From: Clostridia bacterium | GTDB taxonomy: Bacteria; Bacillota; Clostridia; Oscillospirales; RGIG8002 | Length of the DNA stretch: 64,000 bases | Direction: 5' to 3' | Assembly (NCBI GenBank): GCA_017620395.1 | Contig: JAFZQJ010000026.1 | Coordinates: forward strand, 124,001-188,000 | Shown: positions 21,315-54,200 of the stretch, piece after piece | Layout: each line of letters begins with the position of its first letter | Position numbering within the stretch: position 1 is the stretch's first letter | Notes under the pieces: model-generated | Database searches by the model: none | The model's input: only the letters and a program-made list of their open reading frames with translations | What the model was told of the DNA's origin: nothing | Program-made: the position numbers and the translations under genes

Positions 21315-23129
21315 ATGAGAAGATCAAGAGGCGGTATCGTACTGCTCGTGCTTATAGTCGGAGTGCTGCTCGCTTCGCTGCTGCTTTCGCAGGGCGGCTC
21401 GTCCGAGAAGCGTACGTATTCCGAAATAATCGACCTGTTCAAACAGGGAAAGGTCGAGAGTTATTCGCTTAATATCAGCAACGGCAAGCTCGTCTTTTTC
21501 ACGAAGGAAGCGCCGACTAAAGAGGAGAGCTTTTCGCTGCCCTCCGCGTCGCTTTTTATCGACGACGTCAGAGATATAGTCAAAGAGCAGCACGATAAAG
21601 GCACGATCAAGGTATACGACTACACCAAATCGTCCGACTGGGCGGGATATCTCGTTTATATCCCTTACGTTCTGATGTTCGGTCTGATAATATTCTTCAT
21701 GTTCCGCACGATGAACAACGCCAACCGCAGCGAGAACCGCGCCATGTCCTTCGGCAAGCTGAAGGTGCGTATGGCGAATAACGAGAAGAACAAAAAGACC
21801 TTTGCCGACGTCGCCGGCGCCGAAGAGGAGAAAGAGGAGCTCGCGGAGATCGTCGACTACCTCAAAAACCCGACCAAGTATATGGAGATCGGCGCGCGTA
21901 TCCCGAAGGGCATACTGCTCGTCGGCCCTCCCGGCACCGGTAAAACGCTTATAGCGAAGGCGACCGCCGGAGAAGCAGGCGTACCCTTCTTCTTCATTTC
22001 CGGCTCCGACTTCGTCGAGCTGTTCGTCGGCGTAGGCGCGTCGCGCGTCCGCGACCTGTTCGATCAGGCGAAGAAGAACGCCCCCTCTATCGTTTTCGTC
22101 GATGAGATCGACGCCGTCGGCAGACAGCGCGGCGCGGGTCTCGGCGGCGGTCACGACGAGAAGGAGCAGACGCTCAACCAGCTGCTCGTCGAAATGGACG
22201 GCTTCTCGGAGAACGAGGGAGTTATCATAATGGCGGCGACCAACCGCCCCGACATCCTCGATCCCGCGCTGCTTCGTCCGGGTCGTTTCGACAGGCAGGT
22301 ATACGTCAGCGCGCCCGACATAAAGGGACGTGAGGAGATACTCAAAGTCCACGCCCGCAACAAGAAGTTTGAGCCGGACGTCGACTTCAAAACGATAGCC
22401 AAGACCACGGTCGGCTTCACCGGCGCGGATCTGGAGAACCTGCTCAACGAGTCGGCGCTGCTTGCCGCGCGCGCCAACCGCAAGGTCATTTCCGCCGCGG
22501 ATATCGAGAACGCCGTCATGAAGGTCGTCGCCGGCCCGGAGAAGAAGTCCCGCGTCGTTTCCGAAAAGGAGAAACGCCTGACCGCGTATCACGAAGCCGG
22601 CCACGCGATCGTTACCCACTTCCTGCCGAGCTGCGATCCGGTTCATCAGATCTCCATTATGCCCAGAGGTATGATGGGCGGCTTCACCCGTTTCCTGCCG
22701 AAAGAGGATAAGAGCTATACCTCCAAGACCGAGATGCGCGAGGAAATTTCCTCGCTGCTCGGCGGCAGAGTCGCCGAAGCGATTGCGCTGGGCGACATCT
22801 CCACCGGAGCGTCCAACGATCTTGAACGCGCCACCCGTATCGCGCGCAACATGGTCACTAAGTACGGCATGAGCGACGCGCTCGGCTCCGTGACCTTCGG
22901 CAGCGAACACGACGAAGTCTTCCTCGGCCGCGACCTGACCACGTCCAAGGTCTTCTCCGAAACCACCGCAGCCAAGATCGACGAAGAGGTCGAGAAGATC
23001 ATCGGCGCCGCCTATAAGAAGGCGGAGGATATACTGAATTCCAACCGCGATAAGCTCGATGCCGTCGCCGCGCTTCTGCTCGAAAAGGAGACGATCGGCT
23101 CCGCCGAGTTCAATTCCGTATTTGCCTGA
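21315..23129 (+). CDS. ftsH: ATP-dependent zinc metalloprotease FtsH
   Basis: A 604-residue membrane AAA protease. One membrane helix near the N-terminus (about 6-22) is followed by an extracytoplasmic region and a second helix (about 107-125). The AAA module has Walker A GPPGTGKT at 204-211, and the zinc-protease motif HEAGH is at 426-430. It degrades unassembled membrane proteins and short-lived regulators. An earlier in-frame ATG (21279) lacks a good ribosome site; AAGGAGAAATGCT directly precedes the ATG at 21315. Its position after hpt is conserved. Confidence 0.97.
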
Positions 23130-23154
23130 TAACCGCGAAAGGACGGACACACCC

Positions 23155-24450
23155 TTGAACAGAACCATGAAACGCATTCTCTCGCTGCTTGCCGCTCTGG
23201 CGATATTCTCCGGAACGGCTGTTTCCGCGTCCGTGCTCAACCCCATAGCCGACGACCGCGATTCCATGATCGCAGCGATAGACGACGGTTTGCGCGAAGC
23301 GTTCGGCAGCGGCGAAAGCGAGGTGGATTTCGCCATAACCGGCGCCTTCGTTTCGCAGTTCAGGGCGACGGACGAAAAGTTCGAGCCGGAAGAGGAGTAC
23401 TTCACGTCCAAAAACCCGATTCTGAAGTATAAATACACCGCCGGCAACGACTATATCGGTCTGAAGATGTCGAGAGTCGACTGGAAGGTCAGCTATACTT
23501 TTGATCCGCAGACGTCGGCGGTCGACACATTCAACGTCGTATGCCTCGTCGAGAAGTGGCATGAGACGCCGAAGGAGACGGAATACGTTGAGAAATACGC
23601 GCGGGAAAATATCGCGGCGATCCTCAACGGCGCGGAAACTGAATACGATAAAGTCAAGAACATCCACGACTGGATGATACTTAATTTCGATTACGCCTAC
23701 AGCGACACCTATAACGCCAAGTCGCATTCCGCTTACGGGATGCTTACCAACGGCAGGGGAGTATGTTCGGCGTACGCCCTGCTTTTCGACGTGCTTTGCC
23801 GTACCGCCGGTCTGAATACGCGCATCGTCTTTTCTGAGAAGACCTACGCGGTGACGAGCAGCACGTTTTACGTTCACTGCTGGAACATGGTCGAGGTCGA
23901 CGGTAAGTGGTACCACATCGACGTGACGTGGGACGATCAGCCGCACCTCGGCAACGGAGTGGTTTATAATTATTTTCTTAAAAGCAGCGACTACTTCCTG
24001 AAAAACAGCCACCTCTGGGACGACCGCGAGGAAGGCCTCGGCACGCCGTATCCGGAAGCGAAGCGCAATCACTGGAACGCGCCCGGCGCGTCCGGCAGCG
24101 ACAACATCACGCGTCCGATCGAGGGCGATAAGCCGAAGGTGGTCGAGCGCGCTATAGGCCTTGAATCGAGCGTTCCGGAGCCGGTCGAGCTTGACGAAAG
24201 CTCTTCTGCCCCGGAGCCGGCGGCGAGCTCGGCGTCTTCCGAAGGCGCCGCCGCGGTCGGCAGCTCCTCGCCGCTGCTGTTCATCCTTGCCGGCGCGGCG
24301 TTCTGCGCCGCGGTCGCCGTTGTCGCGGTAGTTATCGTCCGCGGCAGGAAGAAGCGTTCCGCGTCCGCTCGGGAGGTAAAGTCCGATGAAACTCCGAAGA
24401 GTAGCGGTGTTTACGATTCCTACGATTCTTACGATGGGTTTGACAGCTGA
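23155..24450 (+). CDS. Exported, membrane-anchored transglutaminase-like protein
   Basis: About 431 residues. A signal peptide (RILSLLAALAIFSGTAVSA) is followed by a transglutaminase-like core with the Cys-His-Asp triad: Cys204 (GRGVCSAY), His241 (YVHCWN) and Asp256 (HIDVTWDD). A Ser/Ala/Glu-rich spacer, a second membrane helix (about 377-400, followed by GRKKR) and a polar tail with repeated YDSYDS come next. The core should face outside and may be a protease or cross-linker; in many such bacterial proteins the activity is unproven. The TTG at 23155 has AAAGGA 11 nt upstream; the ATG at 23167 is an alternative. It is lodged between ftsH and miaB and overlaps miaB by 1 nt. Confidence 0.82.
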   Translation: MNRTMKRILSLLAALAIFSGTAVSASVLNPIADDRDSMIAAIDDGLREAFGSGESEVDFAITGAFVSQFRATDEKFEPEEEYFTSKNPILKYKYTAGNDYIGLKMSRVDWKVSYTFDPQTSAVDTFNVVCLVEKWHETPKETEYVEKYARENIAAILNGAETEYDKVKNIHDWMILNFDYAYSDTYNAKSHSAYGMLTNGRGVCSAYALLFDVLCRTAGLNTRIVFSEKTYAVTSSTFYVHCWNMVEVDGKWYHIDVTWDDQPHLGNGVVYNYFLKSSDYFLKNSHLWDDREEGLGTPYPEAKRNHWNAPGASGSDNITRPIEGDKPKVVERAIGLESSVPEPVELDESSSAPEPAASSASSEGAAAVGSSSPLLFILAGAAFCAAVAVVAVVIVRGRKKRSASAREVKSDETPKSSGVYDSYDSYDGFDS

Positions 24451-28456: not shown

Positions 28457-30357
28457 TAAAGGTACTCCCGAAAAACGTTTCCGAGCTGATCGCCGCTGGA
28501 GAGGTCGTCGAAAGACCGGTTTCCGTCGTCAAGGAGCTCGTTGAGAACAGTATCGACGCCGGCGCGCCGGATATCACCGTCGAGATAAAGGACGGAGGCA
28601 TAACCTACATCCGCGTCAGCGACAACGGCTGCGGCATCCCGCGCGACGAGGTGCCGACCGCGTTCCTGCGCCACGCAACGAGCAAGCTGCAGAACGCCGA
28701 TCAGCTCAACAGCATAGAAACCATGGGCTTCCGCGGTGAAGCCCTTGCCGCGATCTGCGCCGTTTCGCGCACCGATATGATCACAAAATGCGCTTCCGAC
28801 GAGGTCGGGACCGCTGTGCGCTACGTCGCAGGCGACCTCGATTCTTGCGAGGACGCCGGTTGCCCGACGGGTACTACCGTCGTCGTGCGCGATCTGTTTT
28901 TCTCGACTCCGGCGCGTATGAAGTTCTTGAAAAAGGACGCTTCGGAAGCGGCGGCGGTCGCGTCGTTTATGGACAGAGTCGCGCTTGCGAACACCGGCAT
29001 AGCGTTCAAGTTTATAAAAAACGGCGCGGAGGAAATGCGCACGCCCGGCGACGGACGCCTCGACGCAGCGATCAACGCCGTCTTCGGCAGGAAGTTTGCG
29101 GAAACGCTCGCTCCCGTAGAGGGCAACAGCTGGGGCATCGGCGTGAGCGGCTTTACGTCGCAGCCCGCGTTCCCGCGTGCGAACCGCAGTATGCAGATAT
29201 TCTTCGTCAACGGCCGCCTCGTCAGGTCAAAGACCTTCACGGCCGCGCTTGACGCCTCCTACGCGAACCTCGTTCCGTCGGGCAAATTCGCGGCTTGTGT
29301 GCTGAATCTGACGCTCAACCCGGCGCTCGTCGACATAAACGTCCATCCCGCGAAGCTTGAGGTGCGTTTCACGGACGACCACGCGGTCTTTGACGCGATT
29401 TATCACGCTGTAAAGAGTGCGCTTCAGGGCAAAAAGGACGACATCGGAGTATCACCGTCCAAGGTCGTTGAGATAGGAGAGCTTAAGAGCGACGTGGTGA
29501 GCGCCGCTCCGGTGAAGAGCATTTTTGCCGCTCCGGCGGCGCATACGCCGGCGGAACAGACGCGAATACCGGAGACCGAAGCCAGGATAAGCGTACCGAG
29601 AGTCGCGTCTTTCCAGTCAGGGAAGCAGGAGGAACGCGCCGTATCAGTCGCCGCGCCGTCTTCATCTCCTTCGCCGGCGGCGAATACCGCGCCCCGCGAG
29701 CCGGAGGCGCCGTTCTTTGAACCTTCCGCGGTGAAGGAGGAAAAAACTCCGGTCGTCCGACAGGATACGACGAAAACCGACGTCGTTCACGGTTATAATT
29801 ACGTGGGAGAGGTTTACAGGACCTATCTTGTTTTTGAGAGCGAATCGGGCGTGCTCTTTGTGGACAAGCACGCCGCTCACGAACGCATTATATTCAACAG
29901 GCTCAAAAAGAGCTTCAACCCTGATTCCGACGCGCAGCTTCTGCTTTCTCCGGTTACCGTTTCGCTCGACAAAACCGAAGCTCGGACGATACTCGACAAC
30001 GTCGAAACGCTCGCTCAGCTCGGCTTCGACGTAGAGGATTTCGGCGCGGGGCAGGTCACTGTCAGAAGCGTTCCCGTCAAGCTGAACGACGACGACGTTT
30101 CGTCGCTGCTTCAGCTCATGGCGGAAAAGCTCCCGAAGGGCGGCAAGCGCAGCGTAAGCGAAGCGTTTTACGACGACGTCCTCCACTCGGTCGCCTGCAA
30201 GGCTGCCGTTAAAGCCGGCAGACGCAGCAGCGAGGAGGACGCCGAAGACATCCTGCGTATGCTTGACGAGGATCCCGACGCGCGTTTCTGCCCTCACGGC
30301 CGGCCCGTCTGCTTTGAGATAAAGCGCGGCGACCTGGATAAGCAGTTCCTTCGCTGA
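28453..30357 (+). CDS. mutL: DNA mismatch repair protein MutL
   Basis: 634 residues. The GHKL ATPase has ENSIDAGA, DNGCGI and GFRGEAL, with a transducer domain to about 330. A low-complexity linker (about 345-440) precedes the C-terminal endonuclease-type domain. Organisms lacking MutH use an endonuclease MutL with DQHAxxExxxxE; here the motif reads DKHAAHERIIFN, keeping Asp, His and the first Glu but not the last. CPHGRP near the C-terminus matches the metal-site element. Nicking activity is therefore likely but the motif is non-canonical. It overlaps mutS by 4 nt, with miaA 1 nt downstream. Confidence 0.96.
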   Translation: MIKVLPKNVSELIAAGEVVERPVSVVKELVENSIDAGAPDITVEIKDGGITYIRVSDNGCGIPRDEVPTAFLRHATSKLQNADQLNSIETMGFRGEALAAICAVSRTDMITKCASDEVGTAVRYVAGDLDSCEDAGCPTGTTVVVRDLFFSTPARMKFLKKDASEAAAVASFMDRVALANTGIAFKFIKNGAEEMRTPGDGRLDAAINAVFGRKFAETLAPVEGNSWGIGVSGFTSQPAFPRANRSMQIFFVNGRLVRSKTFTAALDASYANLVPSGKFAACVLNLTLNPALVDINVHPAKLEVRFTDDHAVFDAIYHAVKSALQGKKDDIGVSPSKVVEIGELKSDVVSAAPVKSIFAAPAAHTPAEQTRIPETEARISVPRVASFQSGKQEERAVSVAAPSSSPSPAANTAPREPEAPFFEPSAVKEEKTPVVRQDTTKTDVVHGYNYVGEVYRTYLVFESESGVLFVDKHAAHERIIFNRLKKSFNPDSDAQLLLSPVTVSLDKTEARTILDNVETLAQLGFDVEDFGAGQVTVRSVPVKLNDDDVSSLLQLMAEKLPKGGKRSVSEAFYDDVLHSVACKAAVKAGRRSSEEDAEDILRMLDEDPDARFCPHGRPVCFEIKRGDLDKQFLR

Positions 30358-31574: not shown

Positions 31575-32786
31575 TTGAAAAACAACACCGGCAGGTTCAT
31601 ATCAATCGTCGTGTCCGTGCTGTTGATAGCGTACGTGGCCTATAACATCTTCAATCTTGTTTACGATCCGGTAAAAACGGAACGTGCGTTGAGGGTGAGG
31701 GTGGACGACAGCATCACGGTCGCGGGCGTTGCCCTGCGCTCCGAAAGGCTCGTCGACACGTCGGCCTCGGGTATCGTGGATTATCTTGTCAGCGACGGAG
31801 CGCGGGTAGCCAAGGGCGAACGCATAGCCAGAATATACGCTTCCGCATCGGGAGCGGACGTCGAAAAACAGCTTCGCGAGACCGAAGCCGAAATCGCGCG
31901 CCTTGAAGCGGCGCTCGGCGCTCAGGGAACCGGAGTAGACGCCTACTCAATAGAAACAAATATACGCGGCGGATTTGCGAAGCTCGCCGACGCCTGCCGC
32001 GAAGGAAGGCTGAAGAACGTCGGAGCCGTTATGGACGAAGTGCTGACCGACTTCAATATGCGGCAGGTGGTGCAGGGAAACGTGGAGGGATTCACGGCGC
32101 GCCTTGAAGAGCTGAAAGCGGAACGCGACAGACTTCAGGAAACGCGTGCCGGCGATTACGACACGGTGACTTCGCCCGATTCCGGTTACTTCGTCAGCTA
32201 CACAGACTCGTTCGAGAACGTTGCCGACTACGACAGCATAACCGAGCTTACGCCGAAGGAGATAGCGCGTATCTGCGAAAGAACGCCCGAAGTGTCCGAA
32301 GACTCCGGCACGGGGAAGCTTATAGATCAATACGAGTGGTTTTACGTCGCGCCGATTTCCGAAGCCGACGCGGCGCGGCTCGAGGTTGGCAGAACGCTGC
32401 CGGTAAGGTTTTCGTCCTCGCTTGCTTACGACGTGTATTTCACGGTCGAGAAGCTTGAAGCGGACGAGGAAGGCAACAGGGCGGTCATTTTTTCGTGCAA
32501 TAACGTCAACAGCGAGTTGGCGTGCATGCGCGTTGACAGAGCGACCGTGAAGCTCAACAGCTTTTCAGGGGTCAGAGTCAATTCCGACGCGCTCCGCGTT
32601 GTCGACGGGGAGCAGGGCGTATACATCGCCCGCGGCCAGAAGGTCGCCTTCCGCAAGGTCGATCTCGTCTACACGGGCGACGGATACGTGATTTCGAGGA
32701 TCAGGAGAGACGATCCGTCGATGCTGCAGCTTTACGACGACGTAATAATCGGCGGCAGGAATATGTACGCCGGAAAACTCATCTGA
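31575..32786 (+). CDS. HlyD-like membrane-fusion-type protein in the division gene block
   Basis: A 403-residue protein with one N-terminal membrane helix (about 8-28). A lipoyl/barrel-sandwich hybrid segment (SASGIVDYLVSDGARVAKGE) is followed by a coiled-coil hairpin (about 93-200) and a C-terminal beta-rich region. This is the layout of HlyD/RND membrane-fusion proteins, but no pump or ABC transporter gene is adjacent. The start is TTG after a GAAGGAG region. It lies 23 nt after hfq and 12 nt before yggS. Related proteins occur next to sepF in other clostridia, so a link to division or the envelope is plausible but unproven. Confidence 0.78.
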   Translation: MKNNTGRFISIVVSVLLIAYVAYNIFNLVYDPVKTERALRVRVDDSITVAGVALRSERLVDTSASGIVDYLVSDGARVAKGERIARIYASASGADVEKQLRETEAEIARLEAALGAQGTGVDAYSIETNIRGGFAKLADACREGRLKNVGAVMDEVLTDFNMRQVVQGNVEGFTARLEELKAERDRLQETRAGDYDTVTSPDSGYFVSYTDSFENVADYDSITELTPKEIARICERTPEVSEDSGTGKLIDQYEWFYVAPISEADAARLEVGRTLPVRFSSSLAYDVYFTVEKLEADEEGNRAVIFSCNNVNSELACMRVDRATVKLNSFSGVRVNSDALRVVDGEQGVYIARGQKVAFRKVDLVYTGDGYVISRIRRDDPSMLQLYDDVIIGGRNMYAGKLI

Positions 32787-32798
32787 TCGGAGGACGAA

Positions 32799-33497
32799 AT
32801 GGGAATATCCGATAACATATCGACGATAATGTCGAATATCTCTGCCGCCGCCGTAAGAGCCGGCAGGTCGCCGGAGGAGGTCACGCTTGCCGCGGTGACG
32901 AAATTCCAGAGCGCCGAACGCGTTAACGAGGCGATCGCCGCGGGAGTCCGCGTCATCGCGGAGAACCGCGCTCAGGAGCTTGCGGAAAAATATCCGCTCA
33001 TAAACAAGCCCGAGGGGCTTGAGATACACTTCATCGGGCATCTGCAGAAGAACAAGATCAAATACATAATCGACAAGGTCGATATGGTCCAGAGCGTCGA
33101 TACGGTCGAGCTCGCGCAGGCGCTTTCGGCGGCCTGTGAAAAGCGCGGCAGAGACCTGGACGTGCTTGTTCAGGTGAATATCGGAAACGAACCGCAGAAG
33201 TCCGGCTTTGCCGTGTCCGAAGCGGTCTCCGCCGCGTTGGAGATAGCCTCGATGCCTCGTCTGAAACTGCGCGGACTGATGGCGATTCTGCCGCTCGGAG
33301 TCGAAAAAACGGAAGCTTTGAAACTTTTTTCCGAAATGTGCAAACTGTTTCTTGACATACGAGGTAAAATAAGCGATAATAAATATATAAATATACTGTC
33401 GATGGGCATGACCGACGACTACGAATGGGCGGTCGAAGGCGGCTCCACGCTCGTCAGAGTCGGCAGAGCTATTTTCGGAGAAAGAAATCAAATATAA
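32799..33497 (+). CDS. YggS-family pyridoxal-phosphate-binding protein
   Basis: A 232-residue PLP homeostasis protein (COG0325) with the fold of the alanine racemase N-terminal domain. The PLP lysine is Lys35 in AAVTKFQSAE. FIGHLQKNK and LSMGMTDDYEWAVEGGSTLVRVGRAIFG elements are conserved. It is non-enzymatic and buffers PLP and amino-acid metabolism. Its neighbours sepF and divIVA follow the order ylmE-ylmF-divIVA known from Bacillota. A sigma-A-type promoter lies inside its 3' half. Confidence 0.94.
   Translation: MGISDNISTIMSNISAAAVRAGRSPEEVTLAAVTKFQSAERVNEAIAAGVRVIAENRAQELAEKYPLINKPEGLEIHFIGHLQKNKIKYIIDKVDMVQSVDTVELAQALSAACEKRGRDLDVLVQVNIGNEPQKSGFAVSEAVSAALEIASMPRLKLRGLMAILPLGVEKTEALKLFSEMCKLFLDIRGKISDNKYINILSMGMTDDYEWAVEGGSTLVRVGRAIFGERNQI
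33352..33380 (+). promoter_or_regulatory. Internal promoter for sepF-divIVA within yggS
   Basis: TTGACA (33352-33357), a 17-bp spacer and GATAAT (33375-33380) lie in a locally AT-rich part of yggS, about 130 nt before the sepF ATG. The perfect -35 and ideal spacing make a real promoter likely. Confidence 0.7.
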
Positions 33498-33980: not shown

Positions 33981-34772
33981 ATGATTTATCCGAAAGATAT
34001 CAAAGCGAAGCAGTTTTCAAAGAGCTTCAGCGGCTATAAAATGGAAGAGGTCGACGTTTTTCTCGACGAGGTCGCCGCGGATTACGAGAAGATGCTCACC
34101 GATAACGCCGAATTGATAAAGAAGATCGAAGTCGTCGTTGCCAAGCTCGAGGAATACCGCGGCAACGAGGAGTCGATTTCAAACGCTCTTCTCAATGCCC
34201 AGAAGATAAACGAGCAGGTCATCAGAGAAGGTAAAAACAAGGCGGATCTCATCATCAGAGAAGCGACCTTCAAGGCGGAACGCCTTGTGAAGAACGCGCA
34301 GAAGGACGTCGAGCAGGAGCAGGAGACTCTGAACGTTCTGCGCAAGGAGGTTTCGGATTTCCGCGCCAGACTTTTCGCGATATACCGCAGCCATCTCGAT
34401 ATGATCGATTCGCTGCCTTACGTTGAGGATGAGAAGGAAGAGCCCGCGCCCGAGCTGCCTGAAGAAGCTCAGGAGCAGTCTACGGAAACCGCCGAGCCGG
34501 CGCCTTCGGCAGAAACGGTATCTGCGCCCGAAGCTCCGGCCGCCGAACCGGCTCCGGAAGCTCCCGCGGAAGAGGACGTCAGCATCTTCAAGCCTGAAGA
34601 GGCTGCAGCGGCGGCTCCCGAAGCGCCTGCTGCGCCCGAAGCGCCCGAGGCCGCCGAGGATGCGGAGCCCGAGGACTCTGCGGACGGTCAGCTCCTTTTC
34701 GGCAGCGCCGCCGAAAAGTTCAAGGATATCGACATCAAGTTCGGATCGGACTATGATTTTGACAAAGAATAA
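33981..34772 (+). CDS. divIVA: DivIVA-family polar/septal scaffold protein
   Basis: 263 residues. The N-terminal DivIVA domain (about 1-50) has FSKSFSGYKMEEVDVFLDEVAADYEKM. A coiled coil extends to about 145, and a tail (about 150-240) very rich in Ala, Pro and Glu ends in an FKDIDIKFGSDYDF motif. DivIVA marks negatively curved membrane at the septum and poles and recruits partners. The long acidic Pro-rich tail is absent from B. subtilis DivIVA (164 residues) and may be a docking arm. AGGGGG lies before the ATG. Confidence 0.93.
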   Translation: MIYPKDIKAKQFSKSFSGYKMEEVDVFLDEVAADYEKMLTDNAELIKKIEVVVAKLEEYRGNEESISNALLNAQKINEQVIREGKNKADLIIREATFKAERLVKNAQKDVEQEQETLNVLRKEVSDFRARLFAIYRSHLDMIDSLPYVEDEKEEPAPELPEEAQEQSTETAEPAPSAETVSAPEAPAAEPAPEAPAEEDVSIFKPEEAAAAAPEAPAAPEAPEAAEDAEPEDSADGQLLFGSAAEKFKDIDIKFGSDYDFDKE

Positions 34773-44772: not shown

Positions 44773-45825
44773 ATGTTCGAAGGTTTCGTTCCCGATTATA
44801 CGAATATCGTAGACGCCGCGCGCAACAGATCCGCGAAGCGCCTGCCGCTTTACGAGCACCAGATTGACGACGCGATTATGGAAAAGATCGTCGGCAGGGA
44901 GTTTTCCGGCCTGCAGGACGGCTCTGCCGCGGAAGCGGCTGAATACGTCGGCCGCGTCTGTGAAAGCTACCTGAAATGCGGTTACGACACCGTTACCTTC
45001 GAGCGCTGGCTCAGCGTCGCGTTCCCGGGCAGCGGCGCGCTCGGCGGTCACAAGCCGCCCGTGATAAGAGACCGCGCCGACTTCGAGAAGTACCCCTGGG
45101 ACGAGGTGCCGGATAATTTCTTCAAGCTTTACGGCAAGCTTTTCGACGGCCTGCGCGAAAAGCTCCCCGCCGGAATGAAGGCGATAGGGGGCGTAGGCTG
45201 CGGCGTCTTCGAGTGCGTCGAGGACCTCGTCGGATATCAGGATCTCTGCCTGCTTTCTTATGACGATCCGGAGCTTTACGCCGACCTTTTCAAAAAAGTC
45301 GGCGGCGTCAGCGCCGCGACGTGGGAACGCTTCATCCGCGAATACGGCGACCTCTACTGCGTGCTGCGCTTCGGCGACGATCTCGGCTACAAGTCGAATA
45401 CGCTCCTGCCGCACGATGATATCAGAACGCATATAATCCCGCAGTACAAGCGGATAATCGATATGGCGCACGCGAGCGGAAAGCCGTTCCTGCTGCACTC
45501 CTGCGGCAACATCTTCGGCGTTTTCGACGACCTTATCGCCGCCGGAATAGACGCGAAGCACTCGAACGAGGATCAGATCGCGCCATTCACCGAATGGGTT
45601 GAGCGTTACGGCGACCGCATCGGCAACTTCGGCGGCGCGGACGTCGACGTGCTCTGCCAGTCTTCGGAGTCGGAGATAAGAGAATACGTCACGGATATAT
45701 TGAAAAAGTGCGAGGGGCGCGGGGGCGTCGCCTTCGGCTCCGGCAATTCGATAGCCGGATACGTCCCGGTGGAAAACTATCTCGCTATGGTGCGCACCGT
45801 ACGCGAATACCGCGGCGAAAAGTGA
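44773..45825 (+). CDS. Uroporphyrinogen-decarboxylase-family (MtaA/CmuA-like) methyltransferase
   Basis: A 350-residue TIM-barrel protein of the UroD superfamily. The HSCGN motif (His242, Cys244) is the His-X-Cys zinc pair of corrinoid-dependent methyltransferases such as MtaA/MtbA; Cys295 is a candidate third ligand. True HemE decarboxylases lack this pair, and no haem genes are nearby. I infer methyl transfer between a corrinoid protein and another acceptor or donor. A corrinoid protein is encoded 1.4 kb downstream, beyond the serpin gene. The substrate is unknown. GGGGAGGG precedes the ATG. Confidence 0.82.
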   Translation: MFEGFVPDYTNIVDAARNRSAKRLPLYEHQIDDAIMEKIVGREFSGLQDGSAAEAAEYVGRVCESYLKCGYDTVTFERWLSVAFPGSGALGGHKPPVIRDRADFEKYPWDEVPDNFFKLYGKLFDGLREKLPAGMKAIGGVGCGVFECVEDLVGYQDLCLLSYDDPELYADLFKKVGGVSAATWERFIREYGDLYCVLRFGDDLGYKSNTLLPHDDIRTHIIPQYKRIIDMAHASGKPFLLHSCGNIFGVFDDLIAAGIDAKHSNEDQIAPFTEWVERYGDRIGNFGGADVDVLCQSSESEIREYVTDILKKCEGRGGVAFGSGNSIAGYVPVENYLAMVRTVREYRGEK

Positions 45826-45877
45826 CCGCCGCAGTGTGAAACTTGCGTGTGCGCCTTGTATTCCTCATTTTCTTCTG

Positions 45878-45905
45878 AACGAACGTGACTTACGGTTCGT
45901 TTTTT
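45878..45905 (+). terminator. Weak intrinsic terminator after the UroD-type gene
   Basis: AACGAAC (45878-45884) pairs with GTTCGTT (45895-45901), followed by T residues. The stem is short, so read-through into the serpin gene is possible; I see no good promoter between this hairpin and the serpin start. Confidence 0.55.
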
Positions 45906-45958
45906 ACGGGTATATAAGTGAAGAGTGTTCAACAGTCGTGATAACAGGAGGCGCGATT

Positions 45959-47161
45959 ATGAAAAGGATCATTGCGTTGACGCTGGCGCTCGTTATCGGA
46001 GCGGCGATATTCGCGGGCTGCGGAAACCAGCCGGCGGAGCCGGATCCGGCAGCCGCGGGCTACGTCGAAAAACCGGTCGGCAAGGTCAACGGCGCCGCGC
46101 TTTACAACCTCGACGAAAAGCTGCTCGACTATATCGCCGAGCGGCAGAGCGGAAACTTCGTCATATCTCCGATGTCATTCAAATACGCCTACGGGCTTAT
46201 GCTCGCCGGCGCGGAAGGGAACACGAAAAAAGAGCTCCTTGGCGCATTCGCGCTGGAGAACGAGCATTATATCAATAAAGCGCTCTCGTCGTTCAATGAG
46301 TACGCGGATGAAAGCGCGGGCAATACCGATCTGAAAATCGCAAACTCCGTGTGGACGCGCGAGGACATAGGCTCGGTAAAACAGAGCTATAAAGAGAAAA
46401 TCAAAGAGTATAACGCGGAATACTTTGACTTTTCCGGAAACGTCGCCGAAAAAGCCGACGAATGGGTGAAGGGAAAAACCAACGGTATGATCCCGCGTCT
46501 TTTCCCCGAGGGTCACGATACATCCGACCTCGTTATGCTGCAGCTGAACGCCTTATATTTCAAGGGTGCCTGGGATTCGGAGTTCAAACCCGAAGACAAT
46601 CAACGTTCTGATTTTACGAAGGAAGACGGTTCTTTCGTCGAAAAGGACTTTATGTTCCAATCGGAAGCGATGCCGTATTACGAGGATGAGGATACCAAAC
46701 TTGTGATCTTGCCTATCAGAGACTTTTATAGCGAGACGGGCGTCGTTTTCGTTCTCGGAAGCACCGACGATCTGATCGAAAAAATCGGAAAGGCTTATAA
46801 CAGCAGGCCGATAGTCAATCTGGCGATACCGAAGTTCGAGGTCGAAACGTCTTTGGAGAACGGCGAGTTCTGCGATTTCCTGAAAGCGTGCGGCGTTGCC
46901 GACGCGTTCGATGCTTCGGACGCGGACTTTTCCGGAATTACCGATATGCCGCTTTATGTCAGCGAGATCATCCAGAGAGCGAAGCTCGGAATCAACGAAA
47001 AAGGAATAGAAGGCGCGGCCGCGACGGAAATAGGTTACTCTTTAGGTTTCATGCCGACGGAATCGGTGGATTTCAAAGCCGACCGCCCGTTTTCCTTCTT
47101 CGTCGTCGCCGATCTTCAGACGTCGCGCCACGTTATTTTCGAGGGGCGCATCGTCGAGTAA
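45959..47161 (+). CDS. Serpin-family lipoprotein
   Basis: A 400-residue serpin behind a lipoprotein signal (IGAAIFAGC, Cys21). Conserved serpin segments are visible: NFVISPMSFKYAYGLML (66-82), NALYFKGAWDSEF (197-209), hinge GINEKGIEGAAAT (344-356) and DFKADRPFSFFVVAD (371-385). The hinge with its small residues suggests an inhibitory serpin, although P14 is Ile rather than Thr or Ser. The reactive loop (about 357-370) offers Leu362, Phe364 or Met365 as scissile candidates, hinting at chymotrypsin- or elastase-like targets; this is inference. It should sit on the outer face of the membrane. AGGAGG precedes the ATG. The gene looks more AT-rich than its neighbours, which fits horizontal gain. 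Confidence 0.92.
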   Translation: MKRIIALTLALVIGAAIFAGCGNQPAEPDPAAAGYVEKPVGKVNGAALYNLDEKLLDYIAERQSGNFVISPMSFKYAYGLMLAGAEGNTKKELLGAFALENEHYINKALSSFNEYADESAGNTDLKIANSVWTREDIGSVKQSYKEKIKEYNAEYFDFSGNVAEKADEWVKGKTNGMIPRLFPEGHDTSDLVMLQLNALYFKGAWDSEFKPEDNQRSDFTKEDGSFVEKDFMFQSEAMPYYEDEDTKLVILPIRDFYSETGVVFVLGSTDDLIEKIGKAYNSRPIVNLAIPKFEVETSLENGEFCDFLKACGVADAFDASDADFSGITDMPLYVSEIIQRAKLGINEKGIEGAAATEIGYSLGFMPTESVDFKADRPFSFFVVADLQTSRHVIFEGRIVE

Positions 47162-47189
47162 AATCCGCAAAATATTTCGCCGATTTATC

Positions 47190-47218
47190 TTGCAACGTCA
47201 AAATCGTTATGGTATAAT
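47190..47218 (+). promoter_or_regulatory. Sigma-A promoter of the corrinoid protein gene
   Basis: TTGCAA (47190-47195), a 17-bp spacer and TATAAT (47213-47218) lie 37 nt before the ATG. Confidence 0.8.
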
Positions 47219-47254
47219 TACGCTATCAAACAACCTACCCGAGGGGGCGGCAGT

Positions 47255-47887
47255 ATGTCTATTCTCAATGAAATAAGCGAATACATCCAGCGCGGCAGAG
47301 CGCCGGAGGTCGAGGCCTCCGTCACAAAGGCGCTTGAAGACGGCATTCCCGCGCAGCAGATACTTTCAGAAGGACTGCTCGACGGAATGAACGTCATCGG
47401 CGAGAAGTTCAAGAATAACGAAGTCTTCGTGCCGGAGGTGCTTATCGCCGCCCGCGCGATGAATAAAGGCACCGCGCTGCTCAAGCCCTACCTCGCCGCG
47501 GAAGGCGTCAAGGAGAAGGGCGTCGCCGTCATCGGTACCGTAAAGGGCGACCTGCACGACATAGGCAAAAACCTCGTCAAGATGATGATGGAGGGGCGCG
47601 GCATAAAGGTCATCGACGTCGGCGTAGACGTCCCCGCGCAGAAATTCATCGACGTCGCCGAAGAAAACGACGCGCAGATCATCTGCTGCTCCGCGCTGCT
47701 GACGACGACGATGAACGAGATGAAAAACGTCGTCGACGCAGTCAACGCCTCCGGGCTCAAGGGCAAGGTCAAGGTCATGGTCGGCGGCGCGCCTGTCAGC
47801 CAGGCGTTCGCCGACAGCATCGGCGCGGATTGCTATACCTCCGACGCCGCCTCCGCAGCCGAAGCTGCGGTGGGCTTCCTTGAATAG
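47255..47887 (+). CDS. Corrinoid (B12-binding) protein, MtbC1/MtaC-like
   Basis: A 210-residue methyltransferase cognate corrinoid protein. A helical cap (about 1-85) includes EGLLDGMNVIGEKFKNNEVFVPEVL. The Rossmann B12 domain has the base-off DLHDIG motif with His101 as the cobalt ligand, and VMVGGAPVSQAFA follows. Such proteins carry a methyl group between a substrate-specific methyltransferase and a UroD-type enzyme. The UroD-type gene at 44773 is the natural partner, but a substrate-side methyltransferase and a corrinoid reactivase are not in the window. It has its own promoter and terminator. GAGGGGGCGG lies before the ATG. Confidence 0.92.
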   Translation: MSILNEISEYIQRGRAPEVEASVTKALEDGIPAQQILSEGLLDGMNVIGEKFKNNEVFVPEVLIAARAMNKGTALLKPYLAAEGVKEKGVAVIGTVKGDLHDIGKNLVKMMMEGRGIKVIDVGVDVPAQKFIDVAEENDAQIICCSALLTTTMNEMKNVVDAVNASGLKGKVKVMVGGAPVSQAFADSIGADCYTSDAASAAEAAVGFLE

Positions 47888-51240: not shown

Positions 51241-54200
51241 GGAAATAATCGGCTCATCAACTCCCTGGACCGACGGGCAGAAGCTCGCGATAGGGCTCAC
51301 GGGCGGCAGCGTGCTCGTTTCCGCCTCCGCGGGAAGCGGCAAGACCGCCGTCCTCACGGAACGCATCATGCAGTGCGTGATCGACGCGGACGATCCCGCC
51401 GACGTGCGCGACTTCGTCGTCGTCACCTTCACGAAGGCGGCGGCCGCGGAGATGAAGGCGCGCCTCGGCAAGAAGCTCAGCGACTACGCGCGCGAGCATC
51501 CGGAGAACAAGCGCGTCAAAAACCAGCTTATGTATATTCCCGAGGCGCATATCTCGACGATAGACGCCTACTGCCTCTCGCTGCTTGAGAAGTATCAGGC
51601 CGCCGAGGGCGCGGACTATTCCGCGGGCGTGCGTATTTCCGCGGAGGGCGAGGCCGATCTGCTTTTCAAAAAAGCGCTCGCCGACGCAATCGAAGAAGAG
51701 TTTGACAAAGGCGACGCGGAGTTCTACGCGCTCGTCGACGCCATGGAAGACAGCGGCGGCGGCGCGTCCGATCTGAAAAGCGCAGTCTGCCGTCTGCACG
51801 AGCTTATGACCAGAACCCCCGACCGCGAGGAGTTCAAGGCGCGCGTTCTTGAAGTCTTCGGCGAAGGGTACGGCACGGGCAACGCGGAGTTGTTTGCCGA
51901 CGTGTTCCGCAACGTAGCGAACGCGGCGGAGTATTACGAAAAAGAACTCCGCGGCGTCATCGCCGAAGCTCCGGCATTTTCGGGCGATTCGAAACTTGAT
52001 GATAACCTGAAAGGGCAGATAGCCTACCTTGAGGCGTGCGCCGACCGCTTCGCGTCGTTGAAGTCCGCGGCAGCGGGAAAGGACTACGCGTCCGTCGTCG
52101 CGCTGCTCGGAACGCCGCCCGGCGAGCTTTCGAACAAACCGAGGAAATGTCCCGCCTGGGACGGGTGGATGGACGCGCGAAAGGCCGTTGCCGATAAATG
52201 CAGGGGTTATTTCAAAGCCGCCGCGTCCGACTTTTCCGCGACCGAAGATGAAATGCGCGCCGAAGCCGACGCGCTGAGCGTTATCGTCCGCCGCCTGTTC
52301 GCTTTGCAGGAGCTGACGGAAAAGAAATACGCCGAACTGAAAAAAGACCGCGGCGTCTGGGACTACGCCGACCTCGAAACGAAGGCGCTGAACCTGCTGT
52401 GGAAGCGCGATGCGGACGGAACGCTGCGCCGCACCGGCGTTTCGCTCGAAGAGGGCAGGGCGCACCGCGAGATACTCATTGACGAGTATCAGGACGTCAA
52501 CGGGCTGCAGGAGCTCATCTTCCGCGGCATTTGCTCCGAGTCGGAGGATAATCTGTTTATGGTCGGCGACGTCAAGCAGGCGATATACGGTTTCCGCGGC
52601 GCGACGCCAGAGCTCTTCCTGCGGCACCGCAACGAATACGCGCCCGCCGTCGGAGAAGACTGCGAGTTCCCGGCGAAGATAAGCCTGAATAACAACTTCC
52701 GAAGCAGACGCGCCGTTACCGACGCGGCGAACGCGGTTTTCGCCGCGATCATGACGGGGGAGACCTGCGGGATAAACTACGGCGCGGAGGACGTCCTCCG
52801 TCCGAACCCCGATGCGGAGAGGGAAAACGCCGGCAGCGGAGCGTATTTCACGCTCCTTCAGGGCGATAACGTCGAGGCGGGCAGACTTGCCGAGGGACGC
52901 TATATCGCCGCGAAGATCAAGGAACTGATCGCCGGCGGCATGACCGTCGCCGACAAGCGCGACGGAACCGAGCGCAAGATCGGCTACGGCGACTTCGCGG
53001 TGCTTATGCGCGGCACTACTCAGCCTCATCTGCGTCCGATAACGGACGCGTTCACCGAGGCGGGCGTACCGTTTTCCGCGCCCGGCACCGATTCATGCTT
53101 CGACGTACCGTCGGTGCGGAGGATGATCTCGCTGCTGCGCGCGATAGATAACCCGATGAAGAATATCGATCTCGCCGCGGCGATGACGAGCGGCGTCTTC
53201 GGCTTCACCGACAGCGAACTCGTCGGGGTCCGCCGCCGCGGGCGGGGAGTGTTCTACTACGCGGTCAAAGCCGCCGCGGAGGCGGGGGACGCGAAGTGCG
53301 CCGGCTTCCTCGCGGCGCTCGAGCATTTGCGCTGTAAGTCCGCCGCGCTGACGGCCGATAAGCTTATATGGTATATTTACAAGACGTCCGGCTTCCTCGC
53401 CTTCGCGTCTTCGCTGAAGAGCGGCAGGCGCGAACGCGCCGCCCTTATGCGCTTTTACGAGATCGCCAAGGCTTACGGCGCTTCCGGCAGGCAGGATCTT
53501 TCCGGCTTCATCGGCTACGTCGACAAGGTCATATCGGAGGGCGTGAAAACCGGCGGCAACGGAACGTCCGGCGTCGGCGGCGAGGTCAGGATAATGAGCA
53601 TCCACGCGTCGAAGGGGCTTGAGTTCCCGGTCTGCTTCATCTGCGACGCCGCTTCGAAGTTTAACGAAGACGATTTGAGCAAGAGCTGCATCATAGCCGG
53701 CGGCTCCTCGTTCGGCATAAAGATCGCCGCGCCGGGAGAGCACACCGTGCGCAACACCGCCGCGAGAAAGCTCGCCGCGGCGAAACTGAAAAAGAAGGGG
53801 CGCGAGGAGGAAATGCGCCTCCTCTACGTCGCGATGACGCGCGCGATAGAACGCATAGAGATCGTCGCCTCCGTTGCCGATACCGCCGTGACCGTCAGCG
53901 GGAGCAGACTCAGACTCAACGCCGCGGGAGAGATGGATCCGTATGAAGTCACGCAGGCGAACAGTTACCTTAAACTCGTCGCGCCGATCGCGCTTGCGGA
54001 AACGGGCGCCTTCGACGTATCGATAGATCCGGAGTTCGAGGTCTCCGCCGCCGGAGAGGAGGGCGCCGCGCCCGAGCCGGACGAAGAGCTCGCGCGGAAG
54101 ATATACGCGCGCATAAACGCCGAATACGGCTTTGCCGCGTCCGCGTCGGTGCCCACGAAGCTGACCGTCAGCGACATCGTCGCGATGAAGGCGGGCAAGA

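Follow-up and report, generated by a model that had tools for sequence, protein, structure and literature searches.

The window, by which we mean the whole 64,000-nucleotide stretch of DNA that was analysed, carries a serpin gene between the genes for a methyltransferase and a corrinoid protein (Table 1). The encoded protein matches the Pfam serpin profile (PF00079) over residues 58-399 and profile positions 13-368 of 370, with an E-value of 7.2e-67 and 226.6 bits against a cut-off of 27, a near-whole-domain match of the kind by which members of the superfamily are recognised, and the closest sequence of known structure is the consensus design conserpin (E 1.9e-37). An AlphaFold2 model, computed with 26 relatives alongside the window protein, has a mean pLDDT of 85, falling below 50 at residues 355-359 and 363-366 in the loop, and resembles solved serpins both by Foldseek (E 1.4e-26) and by VIA-align (Z up to 39.1, rmsd 2.0 over 329 residues); the protein is thus predicted to have the serpin fold, by a model rather than a solved structure. 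Pfam at E<=0.001 found the serpin domain alone, with neither a dockerin nor any other domain.

Table 1. Positions of the serpin gene, its parts and its conserved neighbours in the window.
Feature	Position	Strand	Basis
URO-D/MtaA-like methyltransferase, conserved upstream neighbour	44773..45825	+	Pfam, comparison
Ribosome-binding site AGGAGG	45946..45951	+	sequence
Serpin gene, 400 aa + stop, ATG start	45959..47161	+	ORF, Pfam, predicted model
Putative signal peptide with lipobox-like FAG-Cys21	45959..46021	+	motif only
Constant 5' part, residues 1-86, dS to G001 0.085 (codons 1-87)	45959..46215	+	comparison
Apparently replaced body: most of the serpin body and the reactive loop, dS about 1.7 (codons 88-373)	46216..47071	+	comparison
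Hinge E347-T356 (P17-P8), Ile350 at P14	46997..47026	+	sequence
Candidate scissile region Leu362-Gly363-Phe364-Met365	47042..47053	+	inferred by counting and alignment
Constant 3' part, C-terminal strands	47072..47161	+	comparison
MtgC-like corrinoid protein, conserved downstream neighbour	47255..47887	+	Pfam, comparison

The serpin gene in its genus

We compared the host genome (G000, 98.7% complete) with the three other genomes of its genus, one per species (G001, G002 and G003). Each of the four gave one serpin match, the window gene being the sole serpin found in G000, and a search at E<=10 for second copies or silent cassettes returned none in the four genomes, of which G002 is 75% complete. 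About 17 residues present in the siblings immediately ahead of the body strand LKIANS (near window position 46327) are missing from the G000 protein.

The sequence-only reading had described the gene as richer in AT than its surroundings and had raised the possibility of transfer. The composition is as described, with a GC of 0.524 and a GC3 of 0.666 against 0.592-0.623 and 0.766-0.828 in five neighbouring genes, and the deficit sets in after the first 300 bases (0.597, then 0.499). A GC of 0.524-0.537 is found in the serpins of all four species, whereas the neighbours in G000 lie at 0.59-0.62, and the low value is therefore old and shared. In G001, G002 and G003 the serpin stands between the same URO-D/MtaA-like and corrinoid-protein genes, followed by addB and addA; because all four genomes carry it at one place, the data argue against a recent insertion, and the serpin is a resident gene of the genus at a fixed position. 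Recent acquisition of the whole gene from another organism could account for its low GC, and outside the genus the DNA matches of more than 300 bases to loci of the wider serpin clade mostly end near the serpin, in differing contexts. Such an acquisition is nevertheless improbable, given the two constant flanking genes, the GC common to the genus, and two gene ends whose match to the closest relative is as good as that of the flanks. We therefore rejected recent transfer of the whole gene on synteny and shared composition; what stands of the transfer proposal concerns the middle of the gene, residues about 87-371, described below.

Searches for regulatory signals of the gene's own returned a single promoter-like site, 3' of the gene, and a single terminator-like site, on the opposite strand, neither above shuffled sequences. 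At about 45877-45905 there is a hairpin followed by a run of T, whose folding is no stronger than that of shuffled sequences (z -0.49). An MtaA-like URO-D gene and a gene for an MtgC-like corrinoid protein, a pair that might perhaps be expected to be adjacent, are split by the serpin (44773-47887).

Relatives, hinge and reactive loop

Bacterial serpins had been taken to be uncommon, which fails at least for the order Oscillospirales, where 119 of 245 genomes carry one; in the genus, which is also the family, all four do. Named genomes gave no match when scanned with only the window protein as query, and 28 loci in an alignment-based scan. In eight of these the title refers to red deer or to a site in the ruminant gut, and another 11 carry RUG isolate names, which we take to stand for rumen uncultured genome; L069 and L070, from buffalo and goat rumen, are apparently the contigs of G003 and G002. 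For loop comparison the scan set comprised 30 sequences, L087 being cut by a contig end and duplicate loops being counted once; it was found with the group's own patterns, and the order set consists of best-scoring loci rather than a random draw, with three sequences unparsed and the genus rows, L042 and L050 omitted.

The hinge reads E347-K-G349-I350-E-G-A-A-A-T356, with small residues at P12-P9 and Thr at P8 (GAAAT, 352-356), as in inhibitory serpins, and Gly at P15. At P14 it has Ile350 where the inhibitory consensus, quoted as ExGTEAAAA (PMC8233489, in excerpt), has Thr, a trait of the consensus and not a strict requirement. The sequence-only reading had singled out this Ile within GIEGAAAT; the residue is there, and it is ordinary among relatives. 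C1 inhibitor is a natural inhibitor with an aliphatic P14, a parallel on which the argument here does not draw. The 29 scan-set loops that were parsed have V at P14 in 17 cases, L in five, I in four, and M, A and T in one each, hence an aliphatic residue in 27; the A comes from a gammaproteobacterial record (L095) and the T from one of Opitutales (L096). In the other serpins of the order, P14 is Thr in 40 of 45 parsed loops, or 42 once the 'M' of L020 and L051 is reread as Thr.

We masked hinge and bait and built an unrooted tree of 78 serpins, in which the genus and the scan set without L095 and L096, 27 sequences together, separate from the 51 others with an ultrafast bootstrap of 100. This tree omits four duplicates and the order-set genus rows, L042 and L050, while P0001, P0003, L069, L070 and L087 are represented by genus rows or omitted. 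Because the group with aliphatic P14 is monophyletic at full support, Ile350 is a trait of a clade of Clostridia serpins, many of whose members come from the rumen, and it gives no sign of lost function.

The loop had been judged about three residues longer than that of alpha-1-antitrypsin, and an alignment to the antitrypsin loop grafted on conserpin (6ee5) does leave a three-residue gap; since loops of relatives span 28 to 34 residues (values of 20, 21, 22, 26 and 27 being excluded as parser errors), its length is ordinary. Counting 17 residues from P17 makes Gly363 the P1 residue and Gly363-Phe364 the predicted bond, whereas alignment to the three siblings, which have Leu-Gly-Ala-Met here, points to Phe364-Met365; both estimates fall within the proposed range Leu362-Met365. 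Relative to its siblings, the G000 bait has Phe for Ala and one extra residue.

Divergence of the serpin body between close relatives

The DNA surrounding the serpin in G000 and in its closest relative, G001, is about 95% identical. Over 37.8 kb, 189 windows of 200 bp have a median identity of 0.95, and 17 fall below 0.80, 13 of them outside the serpin; the lowest six are four windows in the serpin (0.59-0.69) and two in addA (0.51). Neighbouring proteins are 95-99% identical (addA 84%) and the serpin 67%. Within the gene, identity in 40-base bins is mostly 0.95-1.00 up to 46215 (0.82 in one bin), then 0.47-0.80, and 0.88-1.00 from 47060. The best two-border model delimits a block at 46216-47071, residues about 87-371 (2dlnL 488), with borders supported to within 46209-46222 and 47065-47078 at three log units; 304 of 835 sites differ inside the block and 148 of 2872 outside. 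Silent divergence changes abruptly within the gene, as is characteristic of mosaic genes, the first 87 codons having a dS of 0.085, the core 1.71 and the final 27 codons 0.109, against 0.09-0.37 for the five neighbours. Because silent sites diverge here, which selection on the protein does not cause, we conclude from these comparisons that the serpin body appears to have been replaced by homologous recombination with a strongly diverged allele, by way of near-identical ends.

The excess divergence differs between pairs. On the core tree G000 and G001 lie 0.97 apart, and for the products of four neighbouring genes (gpmI, addB and the URO-D-like and corrinoid genes, with addA omitted) the path length is 0.034, a ratio of about 28, whereas G002 and G003 are separated by 0.44 in the core and 0.33 in the neighbours (1.3 times). 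Tree shape adds no proof: the core of the genus quartet has the same shape as the neighbours and agrees with the species, a test with outgroups does not reject G000 and G001 as sisters (AU, p 0.30), and we found no conflict between block and flanks, so that the case for exchange rests on divergence, not topology. With its three siblings the core of G000 shares 54-58% identity, and with no other sequence encountered more than 45%, and no donor closer than the genus was found among 394 genomes of the order and 391 of the class. In the stretch immediately beyond the 5' border, as far as codon 93, it is G002 rather than G001 that G000 matches, so that either species of the pair may have been the one that changed.

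Could the body instead have evolved very fast in place, under diversifying selection and without recombination? The large protein change (dN 0.35) and the agreement of tree shape with the species would fit such a history, but selection on the protein does not raise dS, and silent sites near saturation in the body (dS 1.7) would have to adjoin, across sharp borders, ends with the low values given above. Selection of this kind is also at odds with the hinge and loop, whose P17-P2' identity exceeds that of the body in all six pairs of the genus (0.67-0.89 against 0.54-0.71, over only 18 positions), and we regard it as very improbable. Since the bait is more conserved than the body, the greatest change does not lie in the bait, and this conservation speaks against a simple switch of protease specificity, even though the G000 bait does differ from that of its siblings.

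An assembly artefact, in which one of the two contigs joins alleles of different strains, deserves thought where at least two sibling genomes are metagenome assemblies, as the titles of L069 and L070 state, and where another relative, L087, has a suspicious join. We give it very little credence, as the four genomes have intact frames, different bodies and the same neighbours, the contig of the window is 190 kb long, and even a chimera presupposes that another allele sharing these ends really exists.

Further divergence from G001 occurs elsewhere in the window. A second sharp block lies in addA at 51850-52250 (0.51 against 0.80-0.99 nearby) and is perhaps another exchanged segment, and milder windows (0.73-0.80) at 23050-24450, 29450-29850, 31850-32850, 34450-34650 and 53850-54050 fall in transglutaminase-like, mutL, HlyD-like (to its end), DivIVA-like and addA genes.

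Serpin loci of other genera

We extended the comparison to ten further genera, with 37 serpin loci, and set these beside the four loci of this genus, in 65 within-genus pairs, L125 and L126 being omitted from the 39 fetched loci for want of a shared flank match. Flanks with a median identity of at least 0.84 occur in 20 pairs from six genera, and the core lies at least 0.15 below the flanks in five of these, three in this genus and two in genus g68, both involving G165. Pairs from g55, g28, g6 and g42 track their flanks, with deficits of up to 0.12 in g42. Comparable replacement is thus seen in one other of the six genera with close pairs and is absent from four.

At the protein level the G165 serpin (L123) shares 77% identity with its counterpart in the distant G196 and 63% with those in the closer G102 and G142, whereas its downstream DNA is 0.735 identical to G196 and 0.88-0.89 to G102 and G142. 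This is a second replacement in place, together with some upstream DNA, which reaches about 600 bases upstream of the ORF in the comparison with G102 and is milder in that with G142. The serpin tree shape is not excluded by the g68 flank quartet (p 0.41), and distances therefore carry this case too. The 99% identical serpins of L076 and L087 were set aside as a candidate for recent transfer between genera, a contig misjoin being equally likely: L087 diverges from L076 (at about 5966) at a short shared stretch in a histidine-kinase-like frame.

Tentatively, and with more doubt than conviction, we suggest that in these gut Clostridia the serpin locus is a polymorphic surface locus, at which recombination between species would exchange the body time and again and leave anchor, C-terminal strands and bait hinge in place. 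If this is true, selection would fall chiefly on whatever recognises the body, be it proteases, phage, protists or host antibodies, and less on the specificity of the bait.

Function and relation to known serpins

The N-terminus of the window protein has a lipobox-like motif (FAG-Cys21), and its siblings have FAGC, LAGC and LAAC; a loose lipobox motif matches 22 of 30 sequences and misses eight, a count by motif only with start codons picked by rule. The protein is probably membrane-anchored, and the description of a surface-anchored serpin with an inhibitory-looking hinge holds in this form, on the lipobox-like motif and the small-residue hinge. We consider it probable, with some reserve, that the gene encodes a lipid-anchored serpin of inhibitory type outside the cell of an anaerobic gut Clostridia species, and that this resident gene had its body exchanged with a diverged allele.

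We infer lipid anchoring, suicide inhibition and protease targets, the mechanism being that of the family. A protease would cut the exposed loop near Gly363-Met365, the small-residue hinge would then insert into sheet A, and the protease would be dragged along and distorted in a one-shot trap. The likely targets would be proteases of other (gut) organisms. Peptidase_S8 matches occur in the genomes of G002 and G003, and none was found in those of G000 and G001, which makes a self-made subtilase an unlikely target.

A non-inhibitory serpin, whose loop is cut as a substrate or which acts as a binding protein, would suit the Ile at P14, the uncertain P1 and the extra residue relative to the siblings, and hinge mutations can turn PAI-1 into a substrate (PMC7782431, in excerpt). 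We think this unlikely, though worth keeping in view: P12-P9 are all small, P8 is Thr and P15 is Gly, uncharged hinge residues favour loop insertion (PMC10167670, in excerpt), and an aliphatic P14 is fixed in all 27 clade members. An inhibitory serpin remains our preferred reading.

Among characterised bacterial serpins, miropin of Tannerella forsythia (PDB 5ncs) matches the window serpin by sequence and fold at about 25% identity; its host belongs to another phylum and another body site. The loop region of chloropin from Chlorobium limicola (PDB 8gxv) aligns with few gaps, but it has Thr at P14 and by this hinge trait lies outside the aliphatic group. The siropins of Eubacterium siraeum, like the window serpin, come from gut Clostridia and have small-residue hinges, and in vitro they act on human neutrophil elastase and proteinase 3; predictions place one inside and one outside the cell, their low mutual identity is ascribed to gene transfer, and the available excerpt of the report mentions neither a lipobox nor block exchange (PMC5127057). 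The cellulosomal serpins of Clostridium thermocellum are likewise from Clostridia, and one inhibits subtilisin (as cited in PMC6718151, in excerpt); the window serpin differs from that class in having no dockerin module. Serpins of gut and cellulolytic Clostridia thus act on elastase-like and subtilisin-like enzymes (PMC5127057 and PMC6718151, in excerpts), and the role of serpins in many prokaryotes has been called enigmatic (PMC8233489, in excerpt).

Its aliphatic-P14 clade and its swapped body set the window serpin apart as a variant within its family, and a limited literature search found no report of mosaic bacterial serpins. Recombination of diverged alleles inside a fixed gene is familiar from the mosaic penA alleles of Neisseria. 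Those mosaics are selected by antibiotics. A locus that exchanges its body and keeps its bait offers a way into the question of what prokaryotic serpins do: it points towards an external opponent by which the protein is recognised, and its alleles lend themselves to assays with candidate proteases. Odd base composition or low identity in such genes may stem from old alleles and swapped segments and not from whole-gene transfer.

Some further loci carry features of their own. Two serpin copies lie in each of L081 (3398-4714 and 9477-10378) and L078 (4902-5968 and 6001-7269), and the second copy in L081 matches just both ends of other serpins, its middle being absent. The G044 serpin (43% identical; L068, 2755-11126) lies within a few kb of two genes named by eye from their translations, one large and resembling serine recombinases, the other encoding a MobA-like relaxase.
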